This document shows positions 28,329 to 40,577 of a stretch of DNA of 64,000 nt, in pieces. A model generated the notes under the pieces. The model did no database searches. It was given only the letters and a program-made list of their open reading frames with translations, and was not told the origin of the DNA. Numbering within the stretch: position 1 is the first letter of the stretch; the number at the start of each line of letters is the position of its first letter. A program made the translations under genes and the position numbers. Source of the DNA: an uncultured Armatimonadota bacterium (GTDB lineage: Bacteria > Armatimonadota > Fimbriimonadia > Fimbriimonadales > Fimbriimonadaceae); NCBI GenBank assembly GCA_903899015.1, contig CAIUHP010000018.1, forward strand, positions 1 to 64,000, read 5' to 3'.

Positions 28329-29978
28329 ATGACTGTTGAAGGATCTAGCGGTACCCAGGTAAAAGGTCTCGCCCCCAAGCACATCAAGCTACTCACCATA
28401 CTTCTTGGAATTCTCGTCCAAGCCCCTGCGTTTTATCTGGCTCGATCCCGATCTCCATTTGATACCGACGAACTCGCTCTTGGTCTAAGCGTTGTTCATA
28501 CCTGGATTGGTGTTCCACTCCTTTCACTTGCATGGCCAGCATCCCTTCACGTGGTTTTGGGTCAGTTTTATGTGGTTGGAACGTTCGCCACTTCTCACGG
28601 AGGCCATTCACTATCTAGCCTCGGACATCATCTCGCGGGCATCTGCGCCGATCCGTACGGATTGCTCAGCTTCATGCGATATCTGACGGTCATTCTGGCC
28701 GCCGGGGCCATAACGGTACTTGCACGGCACCTTCTCAAGAAAGGGATGCCATGGTGGTTAGTGGTCGCTGTTTCGGCAGCTTTAGCAGTTCAACCGAACG
28801 TGATGCACCACACAATGACCGCAAAAGGGGACGGTCCCGGAATTTGGCTTGCGGTGATTGCCATGGTCATGGCCGTCAGCGAGCCAAAGGTTAAGCCGGT
28901 TTGGATTGGAACCGTGCTCGGCTTGATGTTTGCTTGCCGGCTTAGTTATTTCCCGATTGCCGCGATTGTAGGCATCATGGCGATTGTTGCCCGCTATGGA
29001 GAAACAAAGCCCTTAGCGGTCATCAAAGAAGCCGTTCCCGCCTTCTTTATCGCGTTCCTCTTACCCACCCCTTTCATTTGGGCGGATCCTCTCCGCTACA
29101 TGAAAAACGTGCTGGTTCATATATTGGAAACTGGCCCTCGGTTTGGAATGAAGACTGCTTTGATCTTCCAATGGCACATGATGGGCCCTGGCATGACGGT
29201 CCTGATTCTGTCGTTGGTCGCGTTTGCCGTCCTTCAAAGGAGATGGTTGACTCTTGTTCTTTCCGCTGCGTTAGCTGGCTTCTTCATCATGGCCGTTGCG
29301 AAGCAGTCTAGCTACTACGATCGCTACCTCCTGCCTACCCTGCTCATGATCCCCATGATCTTGATTGATCTGAATTACGAGAACAAGTCTAAGTTGCAAT
29401 TGGGATGGGCAGCCGCCGTAACTGCGGTTTGTGCGGTCCTTGTTCCTCAGTGGGTCAAGGCAGATATTGATCATGTGAACTCAAGCGTTCGGGATCAGAA
29501 CACCTACAAAGAAGCAGTCGCAGCGGCGATCGCAGCCTCTGCAAATGGTAAGTCTCTCATCCCCCTCAACATCCTGACTCGCGGAGTCGGAATTGAAGAC
29601 AATATGTCGCCTCAAGCTGCAAAACGGGTCGAAAACGACGCTTTGAGAGCCTATGCGACCCAGACTCGTATTGCATACGATAAGAACGATCTCCTGCCGC
29701 TCAAAGACGCGGTTGCCGAACGTGAAAGGGGATTGATTGCCCAAATGCGGTTGGTTGAGTACTACACCAAGGGCAAAGCCGATATTCAACTGTGGGATCC
29801 AGGTGATTCGGGACGCTTTGGTTGTGTTACGGAAGACAAAGCGGTCGCCTTGCTTCAAAAGGGTCAAGCCAATGCGATGTTGATCCCGGTCGAGGACATA
29901 AGCAAGTTCCCTGGATTAAAGGTCAGTCAAACGTTCAGAGATCTTGCATTGGTGACGGCAACCAAAACCCTTCCCTAA
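28329..29978 (+). CDS. GT-C-fold membrane glycosyltransferase (GT39/ArnT-like)
   Basis: 549-aa integral membrane protein with about 10-11 predicted helices. After the first helix comes SRSPFDTDELALG, an acidic D-x-D-E motif in the first periplasmic loop that is characteristic of GT-C enzymes using polyprenyl-phosphate sugars. The C-terminal 170 residues are soluble and probably periplasmic. It converges on the GtrA/GT2/CofD-fusion operon across a shared terminator, which suggests it is the final transferase using the sugar flipped by GtrA. Donor and acceptor are unknown. Confidence 0.75.
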   Translation: MTVEGSSGTQVKGLAPKHIKLLTILLGILVQAPAFYLARSRSPFDTDELALGLSVVHTWIGVPLLSLAWPASLHVVLGQFYVVGTFATSHGGHSLSSLGHHLAGICADPYGLLSFMRYLTVILAAGAITVLARHLLKKGMPWWLVVAVSAALAVQPNVMHHTMTAKGDGPGIWLAVIAMVMAVSEPKVKPVWIGTVLGLMFACRLSYFPIAAIVGIMAIVARYGETKPLAVIKEAVPAFFIAFLLPTPFIWADPLRYMKNVLVHILETGPRFGMKTALIFQWHMMGPGMTVLILSLVAFAVLQRRWLTLVLSAALAGFFIMAVAKQSSYYDRYLLPTLLMIPMILIDLNYENKSKLQLGWAAAVTAVCAVLVPQWVKADIDHVNSSVRDQNTYKEAVAAAIAASANGKSLIPLNILTRGVGIEDNMSPQAAKRVENDALRAYATQTRIAYDKNDLLPLKDAVAERERGLIAQMRLVEYYTKGKADIQLWDPGDSGRFGCVTEDKAVALLQKGQANAMLIPVEDISKFPGLKVSQTFRDLALVTATKTLP

Positions 29979-30062: not shown

Positions 30063-30515
30063 TTAATCGCCCGATACTTTTAGAATCTGCTGAGCCTTGT
30101 CTGGCATTTCTGCGTGGAAAACGAATAGCCGTCTGCCTATGAAATTCCAAACAAGCACGCCAGGCAGAGTAATGACCTTTGCCATGACCGGGGAGACGTG
30201 CGCCACACTCACAAGCACCGAAACCGCACCTGCGGTTAGGATCAGGCCGACAAGCGAGACCAGCCAAAACCTTAGGATCTCTTCTTTAGCAGAATACTTC
30301 CCTCTCTTGAACGCCACGCTGTACGACAAGAAGTAGTTGAGCAGAGTCGCGATAATAAAGCTGAGGGTCGCAGCAACAACGAGGGGTACGTTCTGTCGAA
30401 TAAACACCCAGAAGGTGCCGAAATCTGCGACTGATGAAATGCCACCAACGACGGCATAGACCAGAAACTGAATAACGAGAGTCTTTTTGTCGGAACCGGT
30501 TGAATTACTCATCAA
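30063..30515 (-). CDS. GtrA-family membrane protein (putative polyprenyl-sugar flippase)
   Basis: 150 aa with four predicted helices; the segment FLVYAVVGGISSVADFGTFWVF followed by ATLSFIIATLLNYFLSYSVAF is the GtrA signature, including the N-Y-x-x-x-x-x-x-F near the second helix. In O-antigen modification GtrA is thought to flip undecaprenyl-phosphate-sugar made by GtrB. It is the last gene of the leftward operon, 3 nt after the SDR gene, and ends next to the bidirectional terminator. Confidence 0.88.
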   Translation of the reverse strand: MMSNSTGSDKKTLVIQFLVYAVVGGISSVADFGTFWVFIRQNVPLVVAATLSFIIATLLNYFLSYSVAFKRGKYSAKEEILRFWLVSLVGLILTAGAVSVLVSVAHVSPVMAKVITLPGVLVWNFIGRRLFVFHAEMPDKAQQILKVSGD

Positions 30516-30518
30516 TCT

Positions 30519-31427
30519 TTATTGTTGTGACTTAGCGAGTTCCATGAGCTCTTTAAGCCCCTCTTCGAACGAAACCTCAGGCTTCCATCCCAAGCGGGTT
30601 GTAATCCGCTCGATGTCAGCTAACGTCACTTCGGCATCTGCCTTTCGGCGAGGAGTGAATAGCTTTTCATCGGTCGTGATCATATCTGCCAGTTCGAGAA
30701 TCGAAATATTCGTTCCGCTTCCCACATTAAACACGACTGATCGTTGGCTGCTTTCATAAGACATGATATTCGCAGAAACGACGTCCCGAACATGTATAAA
30801 GTCCCGTCGCTGGAGACCATCTCCGTGGATTTCAAGCTGAGAACCTTCTGCCCATTTTTGCAAGAAGATGCCTAAAACGAGAGCATATGCTCCAACTCGA
30901 GGTTGCCTCGGACCATACACGTTGAAATATCGCAGCGCGACGACAGGAAAGTCGAATACGCGATCGAACATTAAAGCGTATTCGCTGCCTACGTGCTTGG
31001 ACAATCCGTAAAAATTCAGGAAGTCCGGAGGAGTTCTATCTTCGTGGTGAGGTGCAGGTTGACTTCCATAGTATGTGGATGAACCGCTATAAATAATTTT
31101 GCCCACGCCGTTATCACGGGCTGCCATCAAAACATTTTGAGTGCCCACAATATTGACTTGCGTGCACGTGTCAATCGCATCCAGTGAAGGTCCTGATCGA
31201 GACATGGCTGCACAATGGAAAACACCATCCATTCCCTCGGTGGCCTTTTTACACGTCTCGAAGTCGCAAATATCGCCTTCAATGAACTCGGCATCAGGGT
31301 GGACCCACTCTCTAAACCCATAAACGAGGTTATCGAGAACTCGAACGGAATATCCCTTGGCAATTAAGCCTTCAACCAAGTGACTTCCGATAAAGCCTGC
31401 GCCGCCAGTAACTAGAACTTTTTTCAT
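30519..31427 (-). CDS. NAD-dependent sugar epimerase/dehydratase (extended SDR)
   Basis: 302-aa cytoplasmic extended SDR. The N-terminus is MKKVLVTGGAGFIGSHLVEGL with GGAGFIG at 8-14. Catalytic region SGSSTYYG and the YGLSK pair are followed by VALRYFNVYGPRQPRVGAYA, a block common to UDP-glucose 4-epimerase-like and UDP-uronate epimerase-like enzymes. It is part of the CofD-fusion operon, so it should act on that operon's nucleotide sugar. The exact substrate cannot be called. Confidence 0.85.
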   Translation of the reverse strand: MKKVLVTGGAGFIGSHLVEGLIAKGYSVRVLDNLVYGFREWVHPDAEFIEGDICDFETCKKATEGMDGVFHCAAMSRSGPSLDAIDTCTQVNIVGTQNVLMAARDNGVGKIIYSGSSTYYGSQPAPHHEDRTPPDFLNFYGLSKHVGSEYALMFDRVFDFPVVALRYFNVYGPRQPRVGAYALVLGIFLQKWAEGSQLEIHGDGLQRRDFIHVRDVVSANIMSYESSQRSVVFNVGSGTNISILELADMITTDEKLFTPRRKADAEVTLADIERITTRLGWKPEVSFEEGLKELMELAKSQQ

Positions 31428-31467: not shown

Positions 31468-32226
31468 TCAGCCGACCTTTGACCGATATAAGTCTCGGAA
31501 GAACTTCAAATCATCTTGGGTGTTGATGCCACGATTCTCATCGGGATCGGCAACCAAGACCTGATTGTAGTGCCAGCCCTTCTTAGCAAGAAAAACTAAA
31601 AACGGTAGGAAATTGATCTCGTTGGTGAGTTTGCCCGATTCGGCCGAAGCTAAATACTCCTTCCAGACCTCGTCCAACCCCTCGGTCGAGAGAAGGAACG
31701 TTCCGACATCACTGAATCCGGTCGGATGGCAAACATCTCCCTCTCTCGACTGAAGGATATTGACCAACTGGCCCTCAGGCGACATCACATATTCGACGTA
31801 AGGGTTTTTTGCAGTGACCAAAGGCAAGGTGCAGCAAGGTCGAGGAGATGCCAAGTGGGCTTCGATACACTTCCGAATCGTTTCACTTGACACGTGGAGC
31901 TGATCTCCCCACATGATCAGAATATTTTCTGCCTCAAATCTGGCAGGGTAGTCACCGAAAATCGCGTCTCCCATGCCCCTTGGCACTTCTTGAACGCTTG
32001 CAGTTACGCAGAGCATTCCCTTTCCATTTTTCTCGTTGTGTTGGATGAAAAGTGGCAATCCAGATGGGGAGACAACCGCATGAATGTTGTCGACAAAAGG
32101 CTCGAGTTTTGATCTCAGGAAGTCCCATATCGTGAGCCCGTCAACGACTTCAACAAGGAGCTTCGGAACGTCTTCACCAAGTCGAGACCCTTTTCCAGCG
32201 GCAGGGATGATGGCACTAAATTTCAA
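31468..32226 (-). CDS. Sugar-phosphate nucleotidyltransferase (MobA-like/NTP transferase)
   Basis: 252 aa. The glycine-rich nucleotide loop is IIPAAGKGSRLGEDVPKLLVE and the metal-binding Asp is in LIMWGDQLHVS. Such enzymes make NDP-sugars from sugar-1-phosphate and NTP. The frame extends upstream to 32286 but would overlap the HAD gene by 64 nt; the TTG at 32224-32226 overlaps the HAD stop codon as TTGA and gives a start just before the fold (MKFSAIIPAAGKG). It fits a pathway in which the HAD enzyme handles the sugar phosphate first. Confidence 0.8.
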   Translation of the reverse strand: MKFSAIIPAAGKGSRLGEDVPKLLVEVVDGLTIWDFLRSKLEPFVDNIHAVVSPSGLPLFIQHNEKNGKGMLCVTASVQEVPRGMGDAIFGDYPARFEAENILIMWGDQLHVSSETIRKCIEAHLASPRPCCTLPLVTAKNPYVEYVMSPEGQLVNILQSREGDVCHPTGFSDVGTFLLSTEGLDEVWKEYLASAESGKLTNEINFLPFLVFLAKKGWHYNQVLVADPDENRGINTQDDLKFFRDLYRSKVG

Positions 32227-32888
32227 GGACGCACGCTCATTGTATTTTGAATTTGAGATTTGAGGGTCAGCAGATCCTCGAACCAATAATTGGTTACCGT
32301 CTTGATGTCGGGGTTAAAAACTCCGACGACCGCAAGTCCAGCGGCTTGGGCTGATCGGATCCCTGCGAGCGCATCTTCAAAGACAATGCATTTTTCAGAA
32401 CTTGCGTTCACATTTCGCATCGCCAATTGATAGCAATCTGGAGCAGGCTTGCCATGCTTTACGTCATCAGCCGTTACCAACTGATCGAGAAATTGATCCA
32501 GCTTCGTGCTCTTCAAGGCTACTTCGACCGATTTGCGGCTGCTACTCGTAACGAGTTGAACTCCCTTCTGAAGATTCTTCAATAGTTCAAGCAATTCAAG
32601 CGCACCAGGCATCGCCTCAAGCTCACCGTCGTTCACCAATTGGCGATAGAGCGCCTGTTTCTGAGTCGTCAATTCTCGCCCAAGATCAGAATCTCCGTCA
32701 ACCATTTGGGTAAAAACCTCAAGGGTGGTTTTGCCGGTTACCTTGTCGTAGTCAAAGGCCTCGCTGTGCTGAGGAACTTCTCGATCGATAACGGCTTGGT
32801 AGGCCCTCGCATGAAGGGCCGATGAATCGATCAGCGTTCCATCAAGATCAAAAAGGAAATGCTGGTGCTCAATGACCTCTCTGTTCAA
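32223..32888 (-). CDS. HAD-family hydrolase (beta-phosphoglucomutase-like)
   Basis: About 221 aa. The nucleophile motif FDLDGTLIDSS is close to the N-terminus; motif II is VTSSSRKS, the lysine is in KHGKPAPDCYQ and motif IV is VFEDALAGIRSAQAAG, as in phosphatases and beta-phosphoglucomutases with a cap domain. The TTG at 32886-32888 is preferred: it overlaps the upstream stop as TTGA and has GGAG about 7 nt upstream. A GTG at 32933 would lengthen it by 15 residues and overlap the fusion gene by 49 nt. It may isomerise or dephosphorylate a hexose phosphate for the next enzyme. Confidence 0.8.
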   Translation of the reverse strand: MNREVIEHQHFLFDLDGTLIDSSALHARAYQAVIDREVPQHSEAFDYDKVTGKTTLEVFTQMVDGDSDLGRELTTQKQALYRQLVNDGELEAMPGALELLELLKNLQKGVQLVTSSSRKSVEVALKSTKLDQFLDQLVTADDVKHGKPAPDCYQLAMRNVNASSEKCIVFEDALAGIRSAQAAGLAVVGVFNPDIKTVTNYWFEDLLTLKSQIQNTMSVRP

Positions 32889-34849
32889 CGGAAGACTCCA
32901 AACAGATTCTTGAGTCCTCGATTGAATCGCCACTTGGGCCGTGTGAATCCAGTGTAGGTTCGGTAGCGAACGGGCATCTCAGCAATTTCCACCTCGTGGT
33001 GAACCAGTTCCTTTGTCACTTCTACCGGCGTGTTCGGTAAACGATCTGTCAGCACCTTTGCCAGCGAAGGTGAGATGCGGCTCTTTCGATAGAGTCGGAA
33101 CCCGGTGAGAGGATCCGAGAAGAACATTCCTACTCTTAGTGCTAACAGTGCACTCACTAAGAACGATCCGAACCAACTCATTCGGAACATCGGGCCGCCT
33201 TCTCCGTATGCCGCATGGAGCGAATTGTGGAATTGACGGCGACTCTGGGTTCGCGAGCCATGAAGAGCTCCAAATCGACTGCTTTGAAGTAGGCGCATGC
33301 CGAGAATAATGTCGCTAAGGTTATATTCACCATCCCCGCTCAGAGTGGCAAAGAATTCAGGCTTTCCGCTGACGACCCAATCTTGAAGGGCCGCAATCTC
33401 AGGGAAGGGTTGATCACTCTTGCTAATCCGCATCGTGATGTTGGAAGGCAGCCCCTTAACGGTGGGAAGAGACTCAACGTTCATGACGACATCGACTTGA
33501 TCAAAATAGTCCGACCATGGAATCTCTAGCATTTCCTGGATCAGAGGATCAATGCCAAGGTTTCTTCCGCCCAAATCAATAAACAGGCGCAGATCCTGCT
33601 TATCTCGGCCACTGGTTTCGAAGAGTTCGATCACGCGATCAGAAATCGCAAGTCCACTGTGAACCATCGGCTTGGCAGGATTAGCCCATTTACCCCGTAG
33701 AAGAGTAGCACCCTTGTAGCTCGAAATTGGTTCGCCATCTGGCTGACCGAGTTTGATGCCATCCGGCAAATCTTCCGCAGTCTCGGTATAGAAAATATGC
33801 GTGATGCCCTTGCGCGAGTTGGTTTCATCTCCGAGGCAGTGCAGCGATTTATCCACCAAGCCAAGACCGGTAGTTGCCTGAATGTCGTGATCCTCTTGGA
33901 TGTTGGCAACAAACGCTTTGACCGTAGCTGGGCTCGAAAGAATCGCTTCACTGGCAATCAAATAGCTGGGTAGCAACGATGAGTGCTGAGTTCCTGGACC
34001 GTAAATAATGATGTCCGCTTCTTGCAAGGCCTTTATTGCCTGAATCGACGGCTCGGTTTTCATCTCTTGCGAACGCAGCCATGCCCGTTTTTCTTCAATA
34101 GGCTTGTCCGCGATCGCGAGCCAGCCTTCCTTGCTGGGTTCACATTCCATGAAATAGAGGTCAAGAATTGGAACAGCTGATTGCGGCCCGACGATGACCG
34201 CTTCACGAGGCATTAATTCCCCATCAGTCTTAAGGGCAACAAGAGTTCTGGCTTCACCTTTACTCACGTTAATCAAACGTGACTTCGAGCCAGCGACCTC
34301 TGACATCAGGCGAGCCGCCTCGTTGAAATCGTTTCCTTGTTCGAGGAATGCTCCCGCGAAGACGAGGTTACCGAGAGAGCAATCGACAAACTCAAAGCTC
34401 ACTTCTTTGATTCGTTTGTCATAAAATCGGAAGAAATGTCCTAAAAGCCCACGGATGCGGTCTCGGGTTACCGTGTCGATAGAACTGAATTGGTCGAGCA
34501 AAGTCTTCTTAAGCCCTTCCATTGAGCCACTATCGACAAATGCTCGAAACGCTTTTAGGTCGTCAGCCGAGAAGTCTTCCGGCAGACGAAACTCAATAAG
34601 CTTCTGGAGTGCGTATTGCTCGGCAGAATACAGGTCGAGCAGATAGGAAAGGTTTTTGCGGAAGTCCGACGGACCAAGCATTCCTGGGACGAAGTCTCGA
34701 AGTGCTCCGGTTGAAAGGCCATCATCGTATGCGTTTACAAGCAAAGACAGATTGACTTCTGGCCTGCGTAGTAGCGCCCGAATGAGGGTTGCACTGCCGC
34801 GTCCTCCACAGAACAGGCATACGTTTTGAGTGTATTTTTGAGTCGTCAT
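32885..34849 (-). CDS. CofD/YvcK-like domain fused to a GT2-type glycosyltransferase domain
   Basis: 654-aa cytoplasmic protein with two halves. Residues about 8-390 match the CofD/YvcK family: GG at 15-16, DDGLSTG at 42-48, GPSDFRKN at 59-66, GNL at 160-162, GPGT at 284-287 and VANI at 314-317. Residues about 430-654 resemble the catalytic part of polyprenyl-phosphate GT2 enzymes: ATLSGDGEYNLSDI near 501-514, GSR at 531-533, DPLTGFRL at 579-586 and EMPVRYR at 624-630. Known CofD transfers phospholactate to a deazaflavin; YvcK binds UDP-sugars. The start overlaps the GT2 stop by 4 nt and its stop couples to the HAD gene. The reaction is unknown; nucleotide-sugar binding or transfer is inferred. 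Confidence 0.82.
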   Translation of the reverse strand: MTTQKYTQNVCLFCGGRGSATLIRALLRRPEVNLSLLVNAYDDGLSTGALRDFVPGMLGPSDFRKNLSYLLDLYSAEQYALQKLIEFRLPEDFSADDLKAFRAFVDSGSMEGLKKTLLDQFSSIDTVTRDRIRGLLGHFFRFYDKRIKEVSFEFVDCSLGNLVFAGAFLEQGNDFNEAARLMSEVAGSKSRLINVSKGEARTLVALKTDGELMPREAVIVGPQSAVPILDLYFMECEPSKEGWLAIADKPIEEKRAWLRSQEMKTEPSIQAIKALQEADIIIYGPGTQHSSLLPSYLIASEAILSSPATVKAFVANIQEDHDIQATTGLGLVDKSLHCLGDETNSRKGITHIFYTETAEDLPDGIKLGQPDGEPISSYKGATLLRGKWANPAKPMVHSGLAISDRVIELFETSGRDKQDLRLFIDLGGRNLGIDPLIQEMLEIPWSDYFDQVDVVMNVESLPTVKGLPSNITMRISKSDQPFPEIAALQDWVVSGKPEFFATLSGDGEYNLSDIILGMRLLQSSRFGALHGSRTQSRRQFHNSLHAAYGEGGPMFRMSWFGSFLVSALLALRVGMFFSDPLTGFRLYRKSRISPSLAKVLTDRLPNTPVEVTKELVHHEVEIAEMPVRYRTYTGFTRPKWRFNRGLKNLFGVFR

Positions 34850-35589
34850 ATGTTTGCGATTTGGAGAACTTTCACGCGAATCAGGAACTGCCTCATTCCG
34901 ATGTAGAGAACAAAGAGAAGGCGATGGGTGGCCCCTTTAACAACCTTCAGGCTGCTCTTGCCTTTCACTCGTGATCGATGTTCGACATTCACTTCGACAA
35001 TCTTCGCTCGTTTTTCGAGCAGCTTGGACGTCATTTCAGTGGAGTAGTTCAACCCCTTAGCCTCAAGGTTGAGCGATCGAAGTAATTTGCCTTCGACCAC
35101 TTTCAATGCGCAATTGAAGTCTTTGAGGTGCGAGCCGTGGAACATATTGGCAACAACGCCACTTGACCAGGATCCAAAGCGAGCAAATCCTGAATCTAGC
35201 TTCTTGTGCCTCACACCCGCCGCAACGGTTGCCTGATCCGCCTTAATGCCTTCCGCTAATTTGACTACCTCTTCAATCGGGAATTGACCGTCGGAATCGA
35301 TCAATAAAACCCAAGGCATGGTCGTATGGGCAATCGCAGTAGTAAGGGCAACTGCCGCACCTTGGTTTTTCTCTAACGTGATTGGTTTGAACTCAGGAAT
35401 CTCTTTCGCTAAGTCGGTGAGTATCTGCCAAGTATTGTCCGTGCTCCCGTCGTTACAAATCACGATTTCGAACGAATCCAGCCATTTCTGAGTTCGCAAG
35501 AAACTCACCCACTCATTGACAATTTCGGTGATGCCATCCTGCTCGTTGTAGGCGGGGGCTGCGAGAGATATTTGACGAACTTCTAGCAT
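34846..35589 (-). CDS. Polyprenyl-phosphate glycosyltransferase, GT2 (GtrB/DPM1-like)
   Basis: 247-aa GT2. N-terminal APAYNEQDGI, CNDGSTDNTW, catalytic IDSDGQFPIEEV near residues 97-108, and C-terminal NYSTEMTSKLLEKRAKIVEVNVEHRSRVKGKS match dolichyl-phosphate mannose synthase-like enzymes that charge undecaprenyl phosphate with a sugar. Unlike GtrB it lacks a clear pair of C-terminal helices; only one weak hydrophobic stretch (THRLLFVLYIGMRQFLI) is seen. It is the first gene of the leftward operon and overlaps the CofD-GT2 fusion by 4 nt. Confidence 0.86.
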   Translation of the reverse strand: MLEVRQISLAAPAYNEQDGITEIVNEWVSFLRTQKWLDSFEIVICNDGSTDNTWQILTDLAKEIPEFKPITLEKNQGAAVALTTAIAHTTMPWVLLIDSDGQFPIEEVVKLAEGIKADQATVAAGVRHKKLDSGFARFGSWSSGVVANMFHGSHLKDFNCALKVVEGKLLRSLNLEAKGLNYSTEMTSKLLEKRAKIVEVNVEHRSRVKGKSSLKVVKGATHRLLFVLYIGMRQFLIRVKVLQIANI

Positions 35590-35956: not shown

Positions 35957-38413
35957 ATGCCGCTCCTTTGGTTGTCTTGCTTAGCTGTTCTGGTGCCGTG
36001 TATGAAGGATAAACCTATGCCTTTCACTGATGAGAATCGCTTCGATCCATCTACCTTTATGTGGTTTTCAGCACCGGCAGCCAAATGGGATGAGGCGCTG
36101 CCAGTTGGAAACGGTCGCCTGGGTGCAATGGTTTTCGGCACCGTTCTCGAAGAGCGCATTCAACTCAATGAAAGTACCTATTGGACGGGCGGCCCTTACT
36201 CAACGGTCGTGAAAGGGGGCCATGAAGTTCTGCCCGAACTTCAAAAACTCGTCTTTGAAGGCAAGTCCCTCGAAGCACACAATCTCTTCGGGCGCAAGCT
36301 CATGGGATATCCGGTTGAGCAACAGAAGTATCAAAGCTTGGCCAACTTACATCTGGCTTTTCACCCTGCGGGAACCGTTAAGGAATACACGCGTGACCTC
36401 GACTTGGCAACGGGAACGAGCCATGTTTCCTACACACTGGGCGGTATTCGGTATCACCGAGAGACCTTTGCAAGCTATCCAGATCAGGCAATCGTCATCC
36501 ACTTGACCGCCGATCATCCGGGAGCGATCAGCTTCAAAGCCAACCTTCGAGGAGTGAGAAATCAAGCTCACTCAAACTACGGAACGGATTATTTCAGAAT
36601 GGACGCAGCCGGTTCCAACCAACTGGTGGTGACGGGCAAATCGGCAGACTATTTGGGAATCCCTGGAAAGCTGAAATACGAAGGACGAATTCAAGCAACC
36701 CATGAGGGTGGGTCTATCAAGACAGTCCGTACCGACCTTATTGTCGAGGGCGCCAACTCAGTAACCCTTGTCTTCGTTGCCGCAACCAACTTCGTCAATT
36801 ACAAGGATGTCTCGGGCGACAGCCACAAGCGAGTTGAAGCAGACCTCGCACGTCTGAGTGGCAAGGGATTCGAGATCTTAAAACACGACGCGGTGCAAGA
36901 CTATAAAAGCTATTTCGATCGGGCCAGTTTGAGTCTGCCCATTAACAAGAATTCCTTCCTTCCAACCCCCGAGCGCAAAGTCCGTTACCAATCGGAAACC
37001 GATCCCAGTCTTGCGGCTCTGACCTATAACTTTGGTCGATACATTCTGATCTCCTCTTCTCGCCCAGGGGGCCAGCCAGCCAATCTCCAAGGGATCTGGA
37101 ACGACGACATGAATCCAGCATGGGATTCGAAATACACAACGAACATCAACACCGAAATGAATTATTGGCCAGCAGAGTCGGCCAACCTCGGTGATCTGAC
37201 CGAACCACTTTTTAGACTGATAAAGGAAGTGTCGGATCAAGGTTCCAAAGTGGCCAAAGAACACTATGGAGCTCACGGCTGGGTGTTTCATCAGAACACC
37301 GACTTATGGCGAGTTGCGGCCCCGATGGATGGCCCCAGTTGGGGCACTTTTACAGTTGGCGGCGCTTGGCTCTGCACCCACTTGTGGGAGCACTATGCTT
37401 ACACTGGAGACAAAGCATTTCTCAAATCTTCCCTTCCCTTATTAGAGGGCTCAGTTCTCTTCTTCCTCGATTTTCTTGTCCAGCACCCTAACGGGAAATG
37501 GATGGTTACGAATCCATCTACTTCACCGGAAAACTTTCCAAATGGTGGCAACAATGGTCCATTTTTTGACGAAACAACTGGAAGCATGCAGCCGGGCACA
37601 ACCATCTGCGCAGGGTCTTCAATTGACATGCAAATCCTTCACGATTTATTTGGTTACTACCTAGCCGCCGTCAAAGAACTTGGCATTCATTCAAAGGTGG
37701 CAGACCGCGTTAAGGAAGTTCGGGAGAAGTTAGTTCCCCCTCAGATTGGCAAAGACGGTTCCCTCCAAGAATGGTCGGAAGATTGGAAATCACTCGAAAA
37801 GAACCATCGACATTTTTCCCACTTGTATGGTCTTTATCCTGGACGGGTGCTTGTCGAGAAGCAGACACCCGCTCTTGTCAAGGCATACAAACAGGTTCTT
37901 GAAGAACGCGGAGATGGTGGCATGGGCTTCTCCATGGCCTGGAAAATGGCTCTTTGGGCACGTCTTGGAGACGGCAACCGATCGAACAAGATTTTCAAGA
38001 ATTATCTGAAAGATCAAAGTTGCATCCAAATGTTTGCCCTGTGTGGAAAGGCACTGCAAGTAGACGGAACCTTGGGCGCAACCGCTGCACTCACTGAAAT
38101 GTTGATCCAATCACACGAAGGAAATATCCATCTGCTTCCCGCCCTTCCTTCCGATTGGGCATCCGGGCAATTCAAAGGGGTGTGCACCCGTGGTGGCTTT
38201 GTAGTTGACCTCGACTGGGCCGACGGACGCGCACAATCCGCGAAAATAATGTCCAAGAATGGAGGGCTTTGCCGGATAAAGGTCAAAGGTGAAGCCACCG
38301 TAATGGTTGCGGGAGAGCCGGTAGCCACCAAGATCAACTCGAACGGAACCTTTGAATTCCCAACGGAAAAGAATAAATCCTATATCCTTAAGTTTCTTGC
38401 CCATGCCAAATAA
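35957..38413 (+). CDS. Glycoside hydrolase family 95 (alpha-L-fucosidase/galactosidase)
   Basis: 818 aa. After a short hydrophobic N-terminus (PLLWLSCLAVLVPC), GH95 hallmarks appear: FSAPAAKWDEALPVGNGRLGAMVFG, LNESTYWTGGP, the central GIWNDDMNPAWDSKYTTNIN and INTEMNYWPAESANL with the two catalytic Asn of the N-x-N pair, and LYGLYPGRVL. GH95 enzymes cleave alpha-1,2-L-fucosyl or L-galactosyl linkages by inversion. The N-terminus could be a weak signal or lipoprotein leader, but Pro before Cys and the lack of positive charge make export uncertain. It overlaps the DPP-IV-like gene by 11 nt. Confidence 0.87.
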   Translation: MPLLWLSCLAVLVPCMKDKPMPFTDENRFDPSTFMWFSAPAAKWDEALPVGNGRLGAMVFGTVLEERIQLNESTYWTGGPYSTVVKGGHEVLPELQKLVFEGKSLEAHNLFGRKLMGYPVEQQKYQSLANLHLAFHPAGTVKEYTRDLDLATGTSHVSYTLGGIRYHRETFASYPDQAIVIHLTADHPGAISFKANLRGVRNQAHSNYGTDYFRMDAAGSNQLVVTGKSADYLGIPGKLKYEGRIQATHEGGSIKTVRTDLIVEGANSVTLVFVAATNFVNYKDVSGDSHKRVEADLARLSGKGFEILKHDAVQDYKSYFDRASLSLPINKNSFLPTPERKVRYQSETDPSLAALTYNFGRYILISSSRPGGQPANLQGIWNDDMNPAWDSKYTTNINTEMNYWPAESANLGDLTEPLFRLIKEVSDQGSKVAKEHYGAHGWVFHQNTDLWRVAAPMDGPSWGTFTVGGAWLCTHLWEHYAYTGDKAFLKSSLPLLEGSVLFFLDFLVQHPNGKWMVTNPSTSPENFPNGGNNGPFFDETTGSMQPGTTICAGSSIDMQILHDLFGYYLAAVKELGIHSKVADRVKEVREKLVPPQIGKDGSLQEWSEDWKSLEKNHRHFSHLYGLYPGRVLVEKQTPALVKAYKQVLEERGDGGMGFSMAWKMALWARLGDGNRSNKIFKNYLKDQSCIQMFALCGKALQVDGTLGATAALTEMLIQSHEGNIHLLPALPSDWASGQFKGVCTRGGFVVDLDWADGRAQSAKIMSKNGGLCRIKVKGEATVMVAGEPVATKINSNGTFEFPTEKNKSYILKFLAHAK

Positions 38414-40577
38414 GTCACAACCATCAAGTTCACTTACTCTTGAGAACATCTTCGTCAACGGAACGTTTGATCCCAAGAGCTACGGTCCACTTCGTTGGAT
38501 GAGTGACCAATCTAGTTACACCACGCTTGAAGTCAACCGTAAGAAAGAACAGGAAATCGTTCGGTACGAGGCATTAACCGGGGCAAAGACTGTTCTAGTT
38601 GGGAAATCGATGCTGACTCGGGATGGTGCCAGTGACCCCATAAAGATCAAGGAGTACGAGTGGTCAAATTGCATGACTCAACTTCTGATCTTCACAAACA
38701 CCCAACAAGTTTGGCGACAGCACACTCGGGGCGACTACTGGATTCTTAACTTAGAATCGGGCGATCTCAAGCAGGTTGGTATCGGGCTCGAAGAAAGCTC
38801 CTTGATGTTCGCGAAGTTCTCACCCGCCGGAGATCGAGTTGCGTTCGTGAGTAAGCACAACGTGTTTGTCGAAGATATTTCGAATGGAACGCGAGTCCAG
38901 CTGACGCACGACGGTAGCGATAAGATCGTTAACGGAACCTTTGACTGGGTTTACGAGGAGGAACTTGGGTGCCAAGACGGTTTTCGATGGAGTCCCGATG
39001 GCAAAACTATTGCCTATTGGCATTCGGACACCACCGATATAGGTTGCTTTACGCTTATTGACAACATCTCGGGGAACTATTCAAAGACGATCCCCCTTCC
39101 CTATCCGAAAGTTGGAACCAAACTATCCGCCGTCAAGATCGGGCTCGTTTCTGCCCAAGGTGGTGCGACTCAGTGGCTCGATATTCCAGGGGATCCCTCA
39201 AATAACTACCTGGCGAGGATGGATTTCATTCCAAACTCCAACGAGCTCATGATTCAGCAACTGAATCGTCAGCAGAATACGCATTGGGTTTGGATCGCAA
39301 AAGTCGATGATCTAAGCCTCACAAACCTGCTCACCGAGAAAGACAATGCTTTTCTCGATCTCCACGACAGCGTCCAATGGATCGACGACGAGAAGTGGTT
39401 CACATGGATAAGCGAGCGGGATGGCTGGCGACATCTGTACCGAATTTCGCGGGATGGGAAGAAAGTTAAGCACATCACCAAGGGTGAGTTTGACGTGGTG
39501 AGTGTTTGTTGTATCGCCCCCAAAACTGGATGGGTCTACTACATTGCCTCTCACACCAGCTACTTAGACCGTTATCTTTATCGAAGTCGCATCGACGGCA
39601 CCGGTCACGCAGAACGCATCACTCCCCTCAACCTAGTGGGACACAACTCCTACCAAATTTCTGAAAGCGGAGAGTGGGCGATTCACACATTTAGCAGTGC
39701 CATCACGCCGACCATCATCTCCCTTGTCCACTTGCCAGAACATATCCAGGTCAAAGTCTTGGAAGGTAACCGTCCCCTCCAAAAGAGGGTTGATCAACTC
39801 GGACTAAGAGCGAAGGAGTTCTTTAAAGTCGATATTGGCGATGAGACTTTGGACGCCTACATGATTAAACCAATCAAGTTCGATCCAAAGAAGAAATATC
39901 CCGTCATTTTCTATGTTTACGGAGAACCGGCTGGATCGACGGTTCAGAACAATTGGTCGAGTAAGGACATCCTTTGGCATCAATATCTTGCCCAGCAAGG
40001 CGTAATCACGATCAGCATTGACAACCGTGGAACAGCCACACCAAGGGGGCGAAAGTGGAGAAAGTCAATCTATCGGAAGATTGGGATTTTGGCGACCGAG
40101 GACCAAGCCAAGGCAGCTAAGAAGATCTTTTGCATGTTCGAATTTATCGACTCAACTCGAGTCGGTGTGTGGGGATGGAGCGGCGGTGGTTCGATGACGC
40201 TGAACTGTATGTTCCGTCACCCGGAAATTTATAAGACGGGCATCGCGATCGCCTTCGTTGCCGACCAAAGGCTTTACGACGCGACCTATCAAGAACGCTA
40301 TATGGATCTGCTTGAGAAAAATGAAAAGGGATACATCAGTGGTTCACCGATTCAATACGCGAAGAATCTTAAAGGCAAGCTCATGATTATCCATGGCACC
40401 GCTGACGATAATGTCCACTACCAGAACTTCGAGAAGCTAACAAATGAACTCATACGGCTCGATAAGGAGTTTTCGATGATGTCGTATCCGATGAGAGCCC
40501 ACGGAATAAGTGAAGGGGAAGGCACCGCTCTTCATCTGAGAAAAACCATGGACCGATTCTGGAAAGAGAACCTTTAG
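38403..40577 (+). CDS. Dipeptidyl peptidase IV-like serine peptidase (S9B)
   Basis: 724 aa from the ATG at 38403, which overlaps the GH95 stop by 11 nt; an upstream ATG at 38352 would overlap by 62 nt. Residues about 60-470 form the DPPIV_N beta-propeller (TFDWVYEEELGCQDGFRWSPDGKTIAYW, including the Glu-Glu motif that binds the substrate N-terminus). The C-terminal alpha/beta hydrolase has the nucleophile in GWSGGGSM, Asp in HGTADDNVHYQN and His in MRAHGISEG. No signal peptide is visible. It removes N-terminal dipeptides. Coupling to a fucosidase suggests glycopeptide use. Confidence 0.88.
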   Translation: MPNKSQPSSSLTLENIFVNGTFDPKSYGPLRWMSDQSSYTTLEVNRKKEQEIVRYEALTGAKTVLVGKSMLTRDGASDPIKIKEYEWSNCMTQLLIFTNTQQVWRQHTRGDYWILNLESGDLKQVGIGLEESSLMFAKFSPAGDRVAFVSKHNVFVEDISNGTRVQLTHDGSDKIVNGTFDWVYEEELGCQDGFRWSPDGKTIAYWHSDTTDIGCFTLIDNISGNYSKTIPLPYPKVGTKLSAVKIGLVSAQGGATQWLDIPGDPSNNYLARMDFIPNSNELMIQQLNRQQNTHWVWIAKVDDLSLTNLLTEKDNAFLDLHDSVQWIDDEKWFTWISERDGWRHLYRISRDGKKVKHITKGEFDVVSVCCIAPKTGWVYYIASHTSYLDRYLYRSRIDGTGHAERITPLNLVGHNSYQISESGEWAIHTFSSAITPTIISLVHLPEHIQVKVLEGNRPLQKRVDQLGLRAKEFFKVDIGDETLDAYMIKPIKFDPKKKYPVIFYVYGEPAGSTVQNNWSSKDILWHQYLAQQGVITISIDNRGTATPRGRKWRKSIYRKIGILATEDQAKAAKKIFCMFEFIDSTRVGVWGWSGGGSMTLNCMFRHPEIYKTGIAIAFVADQRLYDATYQERYMDLLEKNEKGYISGSPIQYAKNLKGKLMIIHGTADDNVHYQNFEKLTNELIRLDKEFSMMSYPMRAHGISEGEGTALHLRKTMDRFWKENL

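Follow-up and report, generated by a model that had tools for sequence, protein, structure and literature searches.

The 64,000-nucleotide window analyzed here, positions 1 to 64,000 of contig CAIUHP010000018.1 (GenBank assembly GCA_903899015.1), comes from an uncultured member of the Fimbriimonadaceae in the phylum Armatimonadota, and encodes on its minus strand a 654-residue protein in which a CofD domain of the GlmR/YvcK type is joined to a glycosyltransferase (GT)-like domain of the GT2 family. A preliminary description made from the DNA letters recognized this pairing but missed its setting: far from standing alone, the fusion is the hub of a widespread cassette that also contains a HAD protein and a nucleotidyltransferase. 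It is part of a conserved gene set composed of a GT2, the CofD(-GT) protein, a HAD protein and a sugar-1-phosphate-type nucleotidyltransferase (NTase), often accompanied by an SDR epimerase. The CofD/GlmR-type, HAD (phosphohexomutase-like) and NTase genes or domains keep company across many bacterial phyla and also in jumbo phages. All functional readings given below rest on sequence, predicted structure and gene order. The genes and domains of the locus are as follows.

32885..34849, minus strand: CofD(GlmR/YvcK-like)-GT2 fusion protein, 654 residues, with an ATG start and no internal stop.
33626..34834, minus strand: CofD/GlmR-like domain of the fusion, residues 6-408 (Pfam, structure model, HHalign).
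32888..33607, minus strand: GT-A/GT2 domain of the fusion, residues 415-654, with an ArnC/DPMS-like fold and eroded donor motifs (model, HHalign, motifs).
34846..35589, minus strand: complete GT2 of the polyprenyl-phosphate type (motifs PAYNE and DSDGQ), overlapping the fusion gene by 4 bases.
32223..32933, minus strand: HAD hydrolase/mutase of the beta-phosphoglucomutase family with intact catalytic motifs (family profiles; found in 48 of 58 related loci).
31468..32286, minus strand: MobA/GlmU-like NTase, in which AAGxGxR, PK, WGD and a late Asn are all kept.
30519..31427, minus strand: NAD-dependent sugar-nucleotide epimerase/dehydratase of the SDR type (family profiles; found in 19 of 58 related loci).
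30063..30515, minus strand: GtrA/DPMS-TM membrane protein (E 3e-20; 4 predicted transmembrane segments), a candidate polyprenyl-phosphate-sugar flippase.
28329..29978, plus strand: protein with about 8 transmembrane segments, a candidate GT-C transferase; a convergent neighbor whose membership in the cassette is presumed.

The cassette is supported by gene linkage. Across 58 related bacterial loci with enough flanking sequence, and counting partners within 3 kb, an NTase is found in 56, a GT2 in 55, a HAD protein in 48 and an epimerase in 19, whereas 20 control loci of about 16 kb around canonical YvcK genes of related genomes contain no NTase, one GT2, no HAD protein and no epimerase. The survey of conserved gene neighborhoods suggested in the preliminary description thus returns a conserved cassette, with the NTase at 56/58 loci versus 0/20 around canonical YvcK. 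CofD is also the common partner in three kinds of gene fusion: to the GT domain (window, L068), to HAD (phages, L107) and to an NTase plus a GT2 (L067, L085). In the last kind, single chains of 932 residues (L067, 7194-9992) and 963 residues (L085, 1679-4570) carry NTase, CofD and GT2 domains that all exceed their Pfam cut-offs, and in an oral Propionibacterium (L107, 7992-11788) CofD and HAD form one gene and the next encodes an NTase fused to a GT4-type enzyme. Multi-transmembrane genes comparable to the one at 28329-29978 adjoin several related cassettes. This context narrows the function of the fusion to the making and using of an activated sugar. An NTase match in a Hyphomicrobiales plasmid was set aside as ordinary GlmU/GlmS.

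Some further variants of the cassette were seen. Triple NTase-CofD-GT2 fusions also occur at L091 and L108; together with L067 and L085 these chains measure 925-963 residues, and their carriers include Bacteriovorax, Patescibacteria and Nitrospina. A distant clade of CofD-GT2 proteins is accompanied by a radical-SAM protein of about 500 residues and/or a methyltransferase of about 310 residues (L063, L066-L068, L084, L091, L093, L098, L101, L108, L109, L113), company that suggests a modified sugar or lipid. Streptosporangiaceae and Thermomonosporaceae seem commonly to have a GT2-CofD-HAD-NTase cassette (L064-L111; Streptosporangiaceae, Actinomadura), which includes a GT4-type gene at least once and maybe serves a cell-envelope glycan.

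The N-terminal half of the fusion is a CofD/YvcK-type domain, as had been proposed. All of the motifs named earlier are present (DDG at residues 42-44, GPSD at 59-62, GNL at 160-162, GPGT at 284-287 and VANI at 314-317), and PF01933 (CofD) matches residues 10-337 with E 2.6e-22 and 79.8 bits against a gathering cut-off of 30. In NCBIfam, the protein scores below the cut-offs of both TIGR01826 (GlmR/YvcK; 71.8 vs 196 bits) and TIGR04357 (GAK-system CofD-like; 63.6 vs 340 bits). An AlphaFold2 model built with 53 homologues (mean pLDDT 90.2, pTM 0.75) was compared with known structures by VIA-align 2, and residues 6-408 adopt the YvcK/GlmR fold (2hzb, 2o2z; Z 34.6, 2.2 A over 295 residues); CofD/FbiA structures match at Z 20-21. 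Relative to canonical YvcK, the domain carries a large helical insert at about residues 95-150. Residues D42, D43 and N316 align by HHalign with the DD pair and Asn of canonical YvcK, and their correspondence with D40, D41 and N198 of Listeria GlmR is by motif. Listeria GlmR makes UDP-N-acetylglucosamine (UDP-GlcNAc) from GlcNAc-1-phosphate and UTP, and a D40A/D41A/N198A variant is about 100-fold less active as a uridyltransferase (PMC10128056). The GPGT motif is likewise kept in the fusion.

In the C-terminal half, residues 340-654 have no Pfam match even at E 10, so the PF00535 cut-off is not reached, and this half alone finds no match among PDB sequences; the earlier glycosyltransferase call consequently rested on motifs (SGDG at 504-507, GSR at 531-533, DPLTGFRL from 579 and EMPVRYR at 624-630). 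PF01933 and PF00535, which the preliminary description suggested looking for together in one protein, do co-occur in distant relatives such as L067 and L068, and in the window protein the former alone is matched. Structure prediction does place a GT-A fold here, beginning near residue 415 instead of 430 as first described, with matches to ArnC (9bhe, Z 17.6), dolichyl-phosphate mannose (DPM) synthase (5mlz, Z 16.7) and GtrB (9nyd, Z 15.0). A search of BFVD with the model of the whole fusion returned almost exclusively GT-A glycosyltransferases, and the GT half aligns profile to profile with the family of the neighboring GT2 gene at E 3.4e-20 (HHalign). Comparison of motifs shows that the donor motifs P-A-x-N-E/PxYNE and DGGS/DGS are gone in the window fusion and its close clade, and that DxD reads [ST]GDG in this clade, its first Asp being lost; GSR.QSR.QF, SDPxTGxR and E.PV.YR are almost invariant and [ST]GDG.Y is strictly kept. 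In the distant clade, the GT domain is a Glycos_transf_2 over the Pfam cut-off (L063, L067, L068, L085, L101), with motifs P-A-L-N-E, D-G-G-S-T-D, F-P-S-D-G-E-Y, GSR and SDPLTG, and actinobacterial homologues stop near residue 400, before the GT domain would begin. The fold and motifs thus suggest that the GT half of the window clade has lost the usual nucleotide-donor site and kept the acceptor side. The preliminary description was right that this is a fold of the polyprenyl-phosphate GT2 type (Z 15.0-17.6), but because its close relatives lack PxxNE, DGS and the first Asp of DxD, it is probably not an ordinary catalytic GT2.

Could the domain nevertheless be active as a polyprenyl-phosphate glycosyltransferase by way of an unusual donor site, the fusion serving only to channel an NDP (nucleoside diphosphate)-sugar from the CofD domain? 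The ArnC/DPMS/GtrB-like fold, the strict retention of [ST]GDG.Y, GSR, SDPxTGxR and E.PV.YR, and the intact Glycos_transf_2 domain of distant relatives would agree with this, but the loss of PxYNE, DGS and the first Asp of DxD holds across the close clade, an intact GT2 gene adjoins the fusion in nearly every locus, and Actinobacteria do without the domain. We consider such an activity unlikely. We favor a role in which the fused GT domain would dock the lipid or the partner GT2, since acceptor-side residues are kept and donor-side motifs are lost.

Relatives of the fusion were reached indirectly. Single-sequence searches with the window protein found nothing at E 1e-12 in 291 genomes of the same phylum and nothing in large collections of genome contigs and viral contigs. 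A match in a 462-kb uncultured phage gave a two-row alignment, and from this the patterns D[DN]G[LK]STG and LGPSD[LF]RKN retrieved 221 relatives from bacterial genomes; 80 of them were taken for analysis. Among these 80 are about 28 full-length fusions with 38-47% identity. That so many independent assemblies encode the same full-length protein bears out the earlier claim of one fused product and rules out that two genes were joined by a sequencing error or a chance reading frame. By record title, the carriers belong to Myxococcota/Deltaproteobacteria, Binatota, Alpha- and Gammaproteobacteria (Legionella, Bradyrhizobium sp. CSA207), Cyanobacteriota/Melainabacteria, Bacteroidota, Verrucomicrobiota and Bdellovibrionota; as many are metagenome bins, any one phylum assignment should be taken with caution. 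In a tree built from the CofD domain, the phages (support 100), 17 rows forming a distant bacterial clade (96), Actinomycetota (98) and window-type fusions come out separately, and the window protein belongs to a 22-row clade (95) whose other members are from Proteobacteria, Myxococcota and Binatota. A short and distant CofD protein on a Sinorhizobium plasmid (L023) stands without the cassette and was discarded.

In the window, the genes for GT2, fusion, HAD, NTase, SDR and GtrA lie on a common strand with ends that overlap or abut. As annotated, two open reading frame overlaps are long, about 49 bases (32885-32933) and about 64 bases (32223-32286); judging from the alignment, the NTase probably starts downstream of the listed TTG, and the HAD protein perhaps downstream of its first listed start codon. 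A pair of genes for a GH95-like alpha-L-fucosidase and a DPP4-like peptidase (35957-40577) adjoins the operon. The congener G005 keeps this pair (71% and 66% identity) and has no operon in the 15 kb beside it; since the operon is also missing elsewhere in the phylum, it seems to have been acquired horizontally. The GC content of the operon is 49% against 50% for the window, with no compositional sign of foreign origin. The source genome also has a canonical YvcK of its own (C25, E 2.5e-108).

The module also has a phage form. CofD relatives are encoded by 33 IMG/VR contigs, and 29 viral loci were analyzed, of which L115 and L116 are near-duplicates. The jumbo-phage cassettes are numbered L024-L032 and L114-L138, and dNMP-kinase-like genes are among their neighbors. 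The GenBank jumbo phage LR756500.1 (L024) and IMGVR_UViG_3300025030_000039 (L028) have an identical CofD-HAD protein at identical locus positions. In 29/29 viral loci a CofD-HAD protein of 544-639 residues adjoins an NTase of the same family as that of the window; the CofD Pfam model matches all 28 of 28 CofD-HAD proteins, and only some reach the HAD model. The AlphaFold2 model of one of these proteins (pLDDT 91.7, pTM 0.90) consists of a YvcK-like part (residues 1-360, Z 31.9) and a HAD fold (residues 362-624) nearest alpha-phosphoglucomutase 4bnd (Z 18.9) and phosphomannomutases (Z 17-18). In phage CofD, Asn usually replaces the second residue of the DD pair. Neighbor counts are lower bounds in these loci, as flanks end early: a gene of the T4 beta-glucosyltransferase family lies nearby in at least 23 of 29 (PF09198 matched in 21/21 proteins tested), a TET-associated-glycosyltransferase (TAGT)-type gene in 4 others (one member tested), a thymidylate-synthase homologue in at least 20, a small kinase-like gene in at least 20 and a guanylate-kinase-like gene in at least 12. 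A switch from Asn to Asp relative to thymidylate synthase marks dCMP hydroxymethylases, and Asp is invariant at this position in 18 phage proteins and in RB69ORF048c, whose record reads similar to dCMP hydroxymethylase. Given this Asp-type homologue and the glucosyltransferase-family genes, the cassette-bearing jumbo phages probably carry glycosylated hydroxymethylcytosine, and their CofD-HAD and NTase genes probably form an undescribed pathway of DNA-sugar modification. A phage providing its own sugar-activating enzyme would have a parallel in Shewanella phage Thanatos, which carries a sugar pyrophosphorylase of its own that serves a cytosine-linked pentose (PMC12838424).

The presence of the module in phages also makes it less likely that the CofD domain senses a nucleotide sugar without catalysis and so gates the GT2 or NTase, in the way that Bacillus subtilis GlmR acts with GlmS. 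GlmR/YvcK is the closest fold, and in B. subtilis GlmR is a UDP-GlcNAc-binding protein with GlmS or YvcJ as its interaction partner (PMC7525490). The Asp-Asp and Asn positions and GPGT are kept, however; every form of the module has the domain, that of phages included, in which there is little reason to expect a feedback sensor; and the domain is fused in three ways to pathway enzymes. We therefore see a purely sensory role as rather improbable.

Our preferred reading, to which we would give a probability of about 55%, is that the fusion is the hub of a sugar-activation cassette, in which CofD, HAD and NTase together would make an activated (nucleotide) sugar from a phospho-sugar. The supply of such a sugar is the only common denominator of the bacterial lipid-linked and the phage DNA-glycosylation loci, and a sugar-phosphate substrate is supported by the fact that two HAD types, both nearest phosphohexose mutases, fill the HAD slot. 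In the proposed scheme, the HAD protein would make or trim the sugar phosphate and the NTase would load it onto a nucleotide, and the CofD domain would perform a phosphoryl- or nucleotidyl-transfer step on a phospho- or nucleotide sugar at an Asp-Asp/Asn site in common with GlmR, candidate steps being formation of a bisphosphate or sugar-1-phosphate, another nucleotidyl transfer, transfer of a phosphosugar, or sensing. In the window pathway, the SDR may epimerize the sugar, the separate GT2 would place it on polyprenyl phosphate, and GtrA would flip the lipid-linked sugar for use by a membrane transferase; in phages, the module would supply sugar for hydroxymethylcytosine DNA.

One of these candidate steps can be developed into a distinct alternative, in which the CofD domain would act, like CofD/FbiA, as a soluble phosphoglycosyl transferase, moving phospho-X from NDP-X to an acceptor with release of the nucleoside monophosphate. 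The acceptor in bacteria would be polyprenyl phosphate on the fused GT-like domain or a glycan, and in phages the hydroxymethylated base or its sugar. This would make sense of the NTase as the source of the NDP-X donor, as CofC is for CofD, of the NTase-CofD fusions, and of a GT half that keeps acceptor-side and loses donor-side residues, and there is fold similarity to CofD/FbiA (Z 20-21). On the other hand, structure and motifs are nearer GlmR (Z 34.6), the complete GT2 and GtrA of the operon are typical of monophosphate sugar lipids, and phages already have T4-type glucosyltransferases for sugar transfer. Taken together, we judge this alternative to be quite unlikely.

Several observations weigh against the sugar-activation cassette that we prefer. 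A pathway with both an NTase and a GlmR-like nucleotidyltransferase would seem to duplicate a function; only a third of the loci (19/58) include the epimerase; the HAD protein could be a phosphatase, not a mutase; the GT domain is not essential to the module, since actinobacterial members lack it; and the DD pair of phages usually has Asn as its second residue. More tentatively, and at somewhat less than even odds, we propose an undescribed activated-sugar route in which a GlmR/CofD-type enzyme is catalytic alongside HAD and NTase and serves both bacterial lipid-linked glycosylation and jumbo-phage DNA hypermodification, the GT fusion being one of several ties between partners. In the open-access literature we found no description of the CofD-GT fusion or of the cassette, in agreement with the earlier claim that the pairing is undescribed; the domains are known, and their combination, spread and phage link appear to be new. 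Cell-wall synthesis is influenced by GlmR/YvcK proteins in many bacteria, and there is continuing debate over whether these proteins act as enzymes or as sensors. A YvcK fold tied by fusion and gene order to HAD and a sugar NTase, in bacteria and phages alike, makes a catalytic role testable with few proteins. A further prediction is that many jumbo phages have sugars other than glucose on their DNA and that many bacteria make an as yet unknown surface glycan.

Among known systems, GlmR/YvcK (UPF0052; 2hzb, 2o2z, 2ppv) has the fold of residues 6-408 and the GG.G, DDG.STG, GNL, GPG and N motifs, and the fusion has the DD and N that matter for uridyltransferase activity in Listeria GlmR; it differs in its sub-cut-off TIGR01826 score, helical insert, GT domain and gene neighbors. 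CofD/FbiA, the 2-phospho-L-lactate transferase, belongs to the same Pfam superfamily and shares the fold at Z 20-21, but is more distant from the fusion than GlmR. In F420 synthesis, CofD is paired with the MobA-like nucleotidyltransferase CofC; nothing at the present locus suggests F420 synthesis. ArnC, dolichyl-phosphate mannose synthase and GtrB resemble residues 415-654 in their GT-A fold, and the complete GT2 and GtrA are neighbors here, whereas the GT half is a soluble C-terminal domain of a CofD protein, without a Pfam match and with donor motifs lost. The ADP/GDP-heptose pathway consists of a kinase, the HAD phosphatase GmhB, an NTase and an SDR epimerase, and after the first step its order of enzyme types matches the cassette (HAD, NTase, SDR epimerase, glycosyltransferase); CofD would replace the sugar-phosphate kinase, and no kinase or isomerase homologue is seen in the cassette. 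Finally, the arabinosyl-hydroxymethylcytosine module of phage RB69 (ORF53_52c, ORF055c, ORF003c) contains the genes proposed to provide a UDP-arabinose donor for DNA (PMC6024577). We had considered ORF53_52c as a CofD relative and rejected it, as it comprises an NTase and a kinase-like domain without CofD. The RB69 NTase is paired with this kinase-like domain and an SIS isomerase, not with CofD and HAD, but there too a phage NTase has a dCMP-hydroxymethylase-like gene and a glycosyltransferase as neighbors, and CofD-HAD and NTase occupy the equivalent place in jumbo phages.

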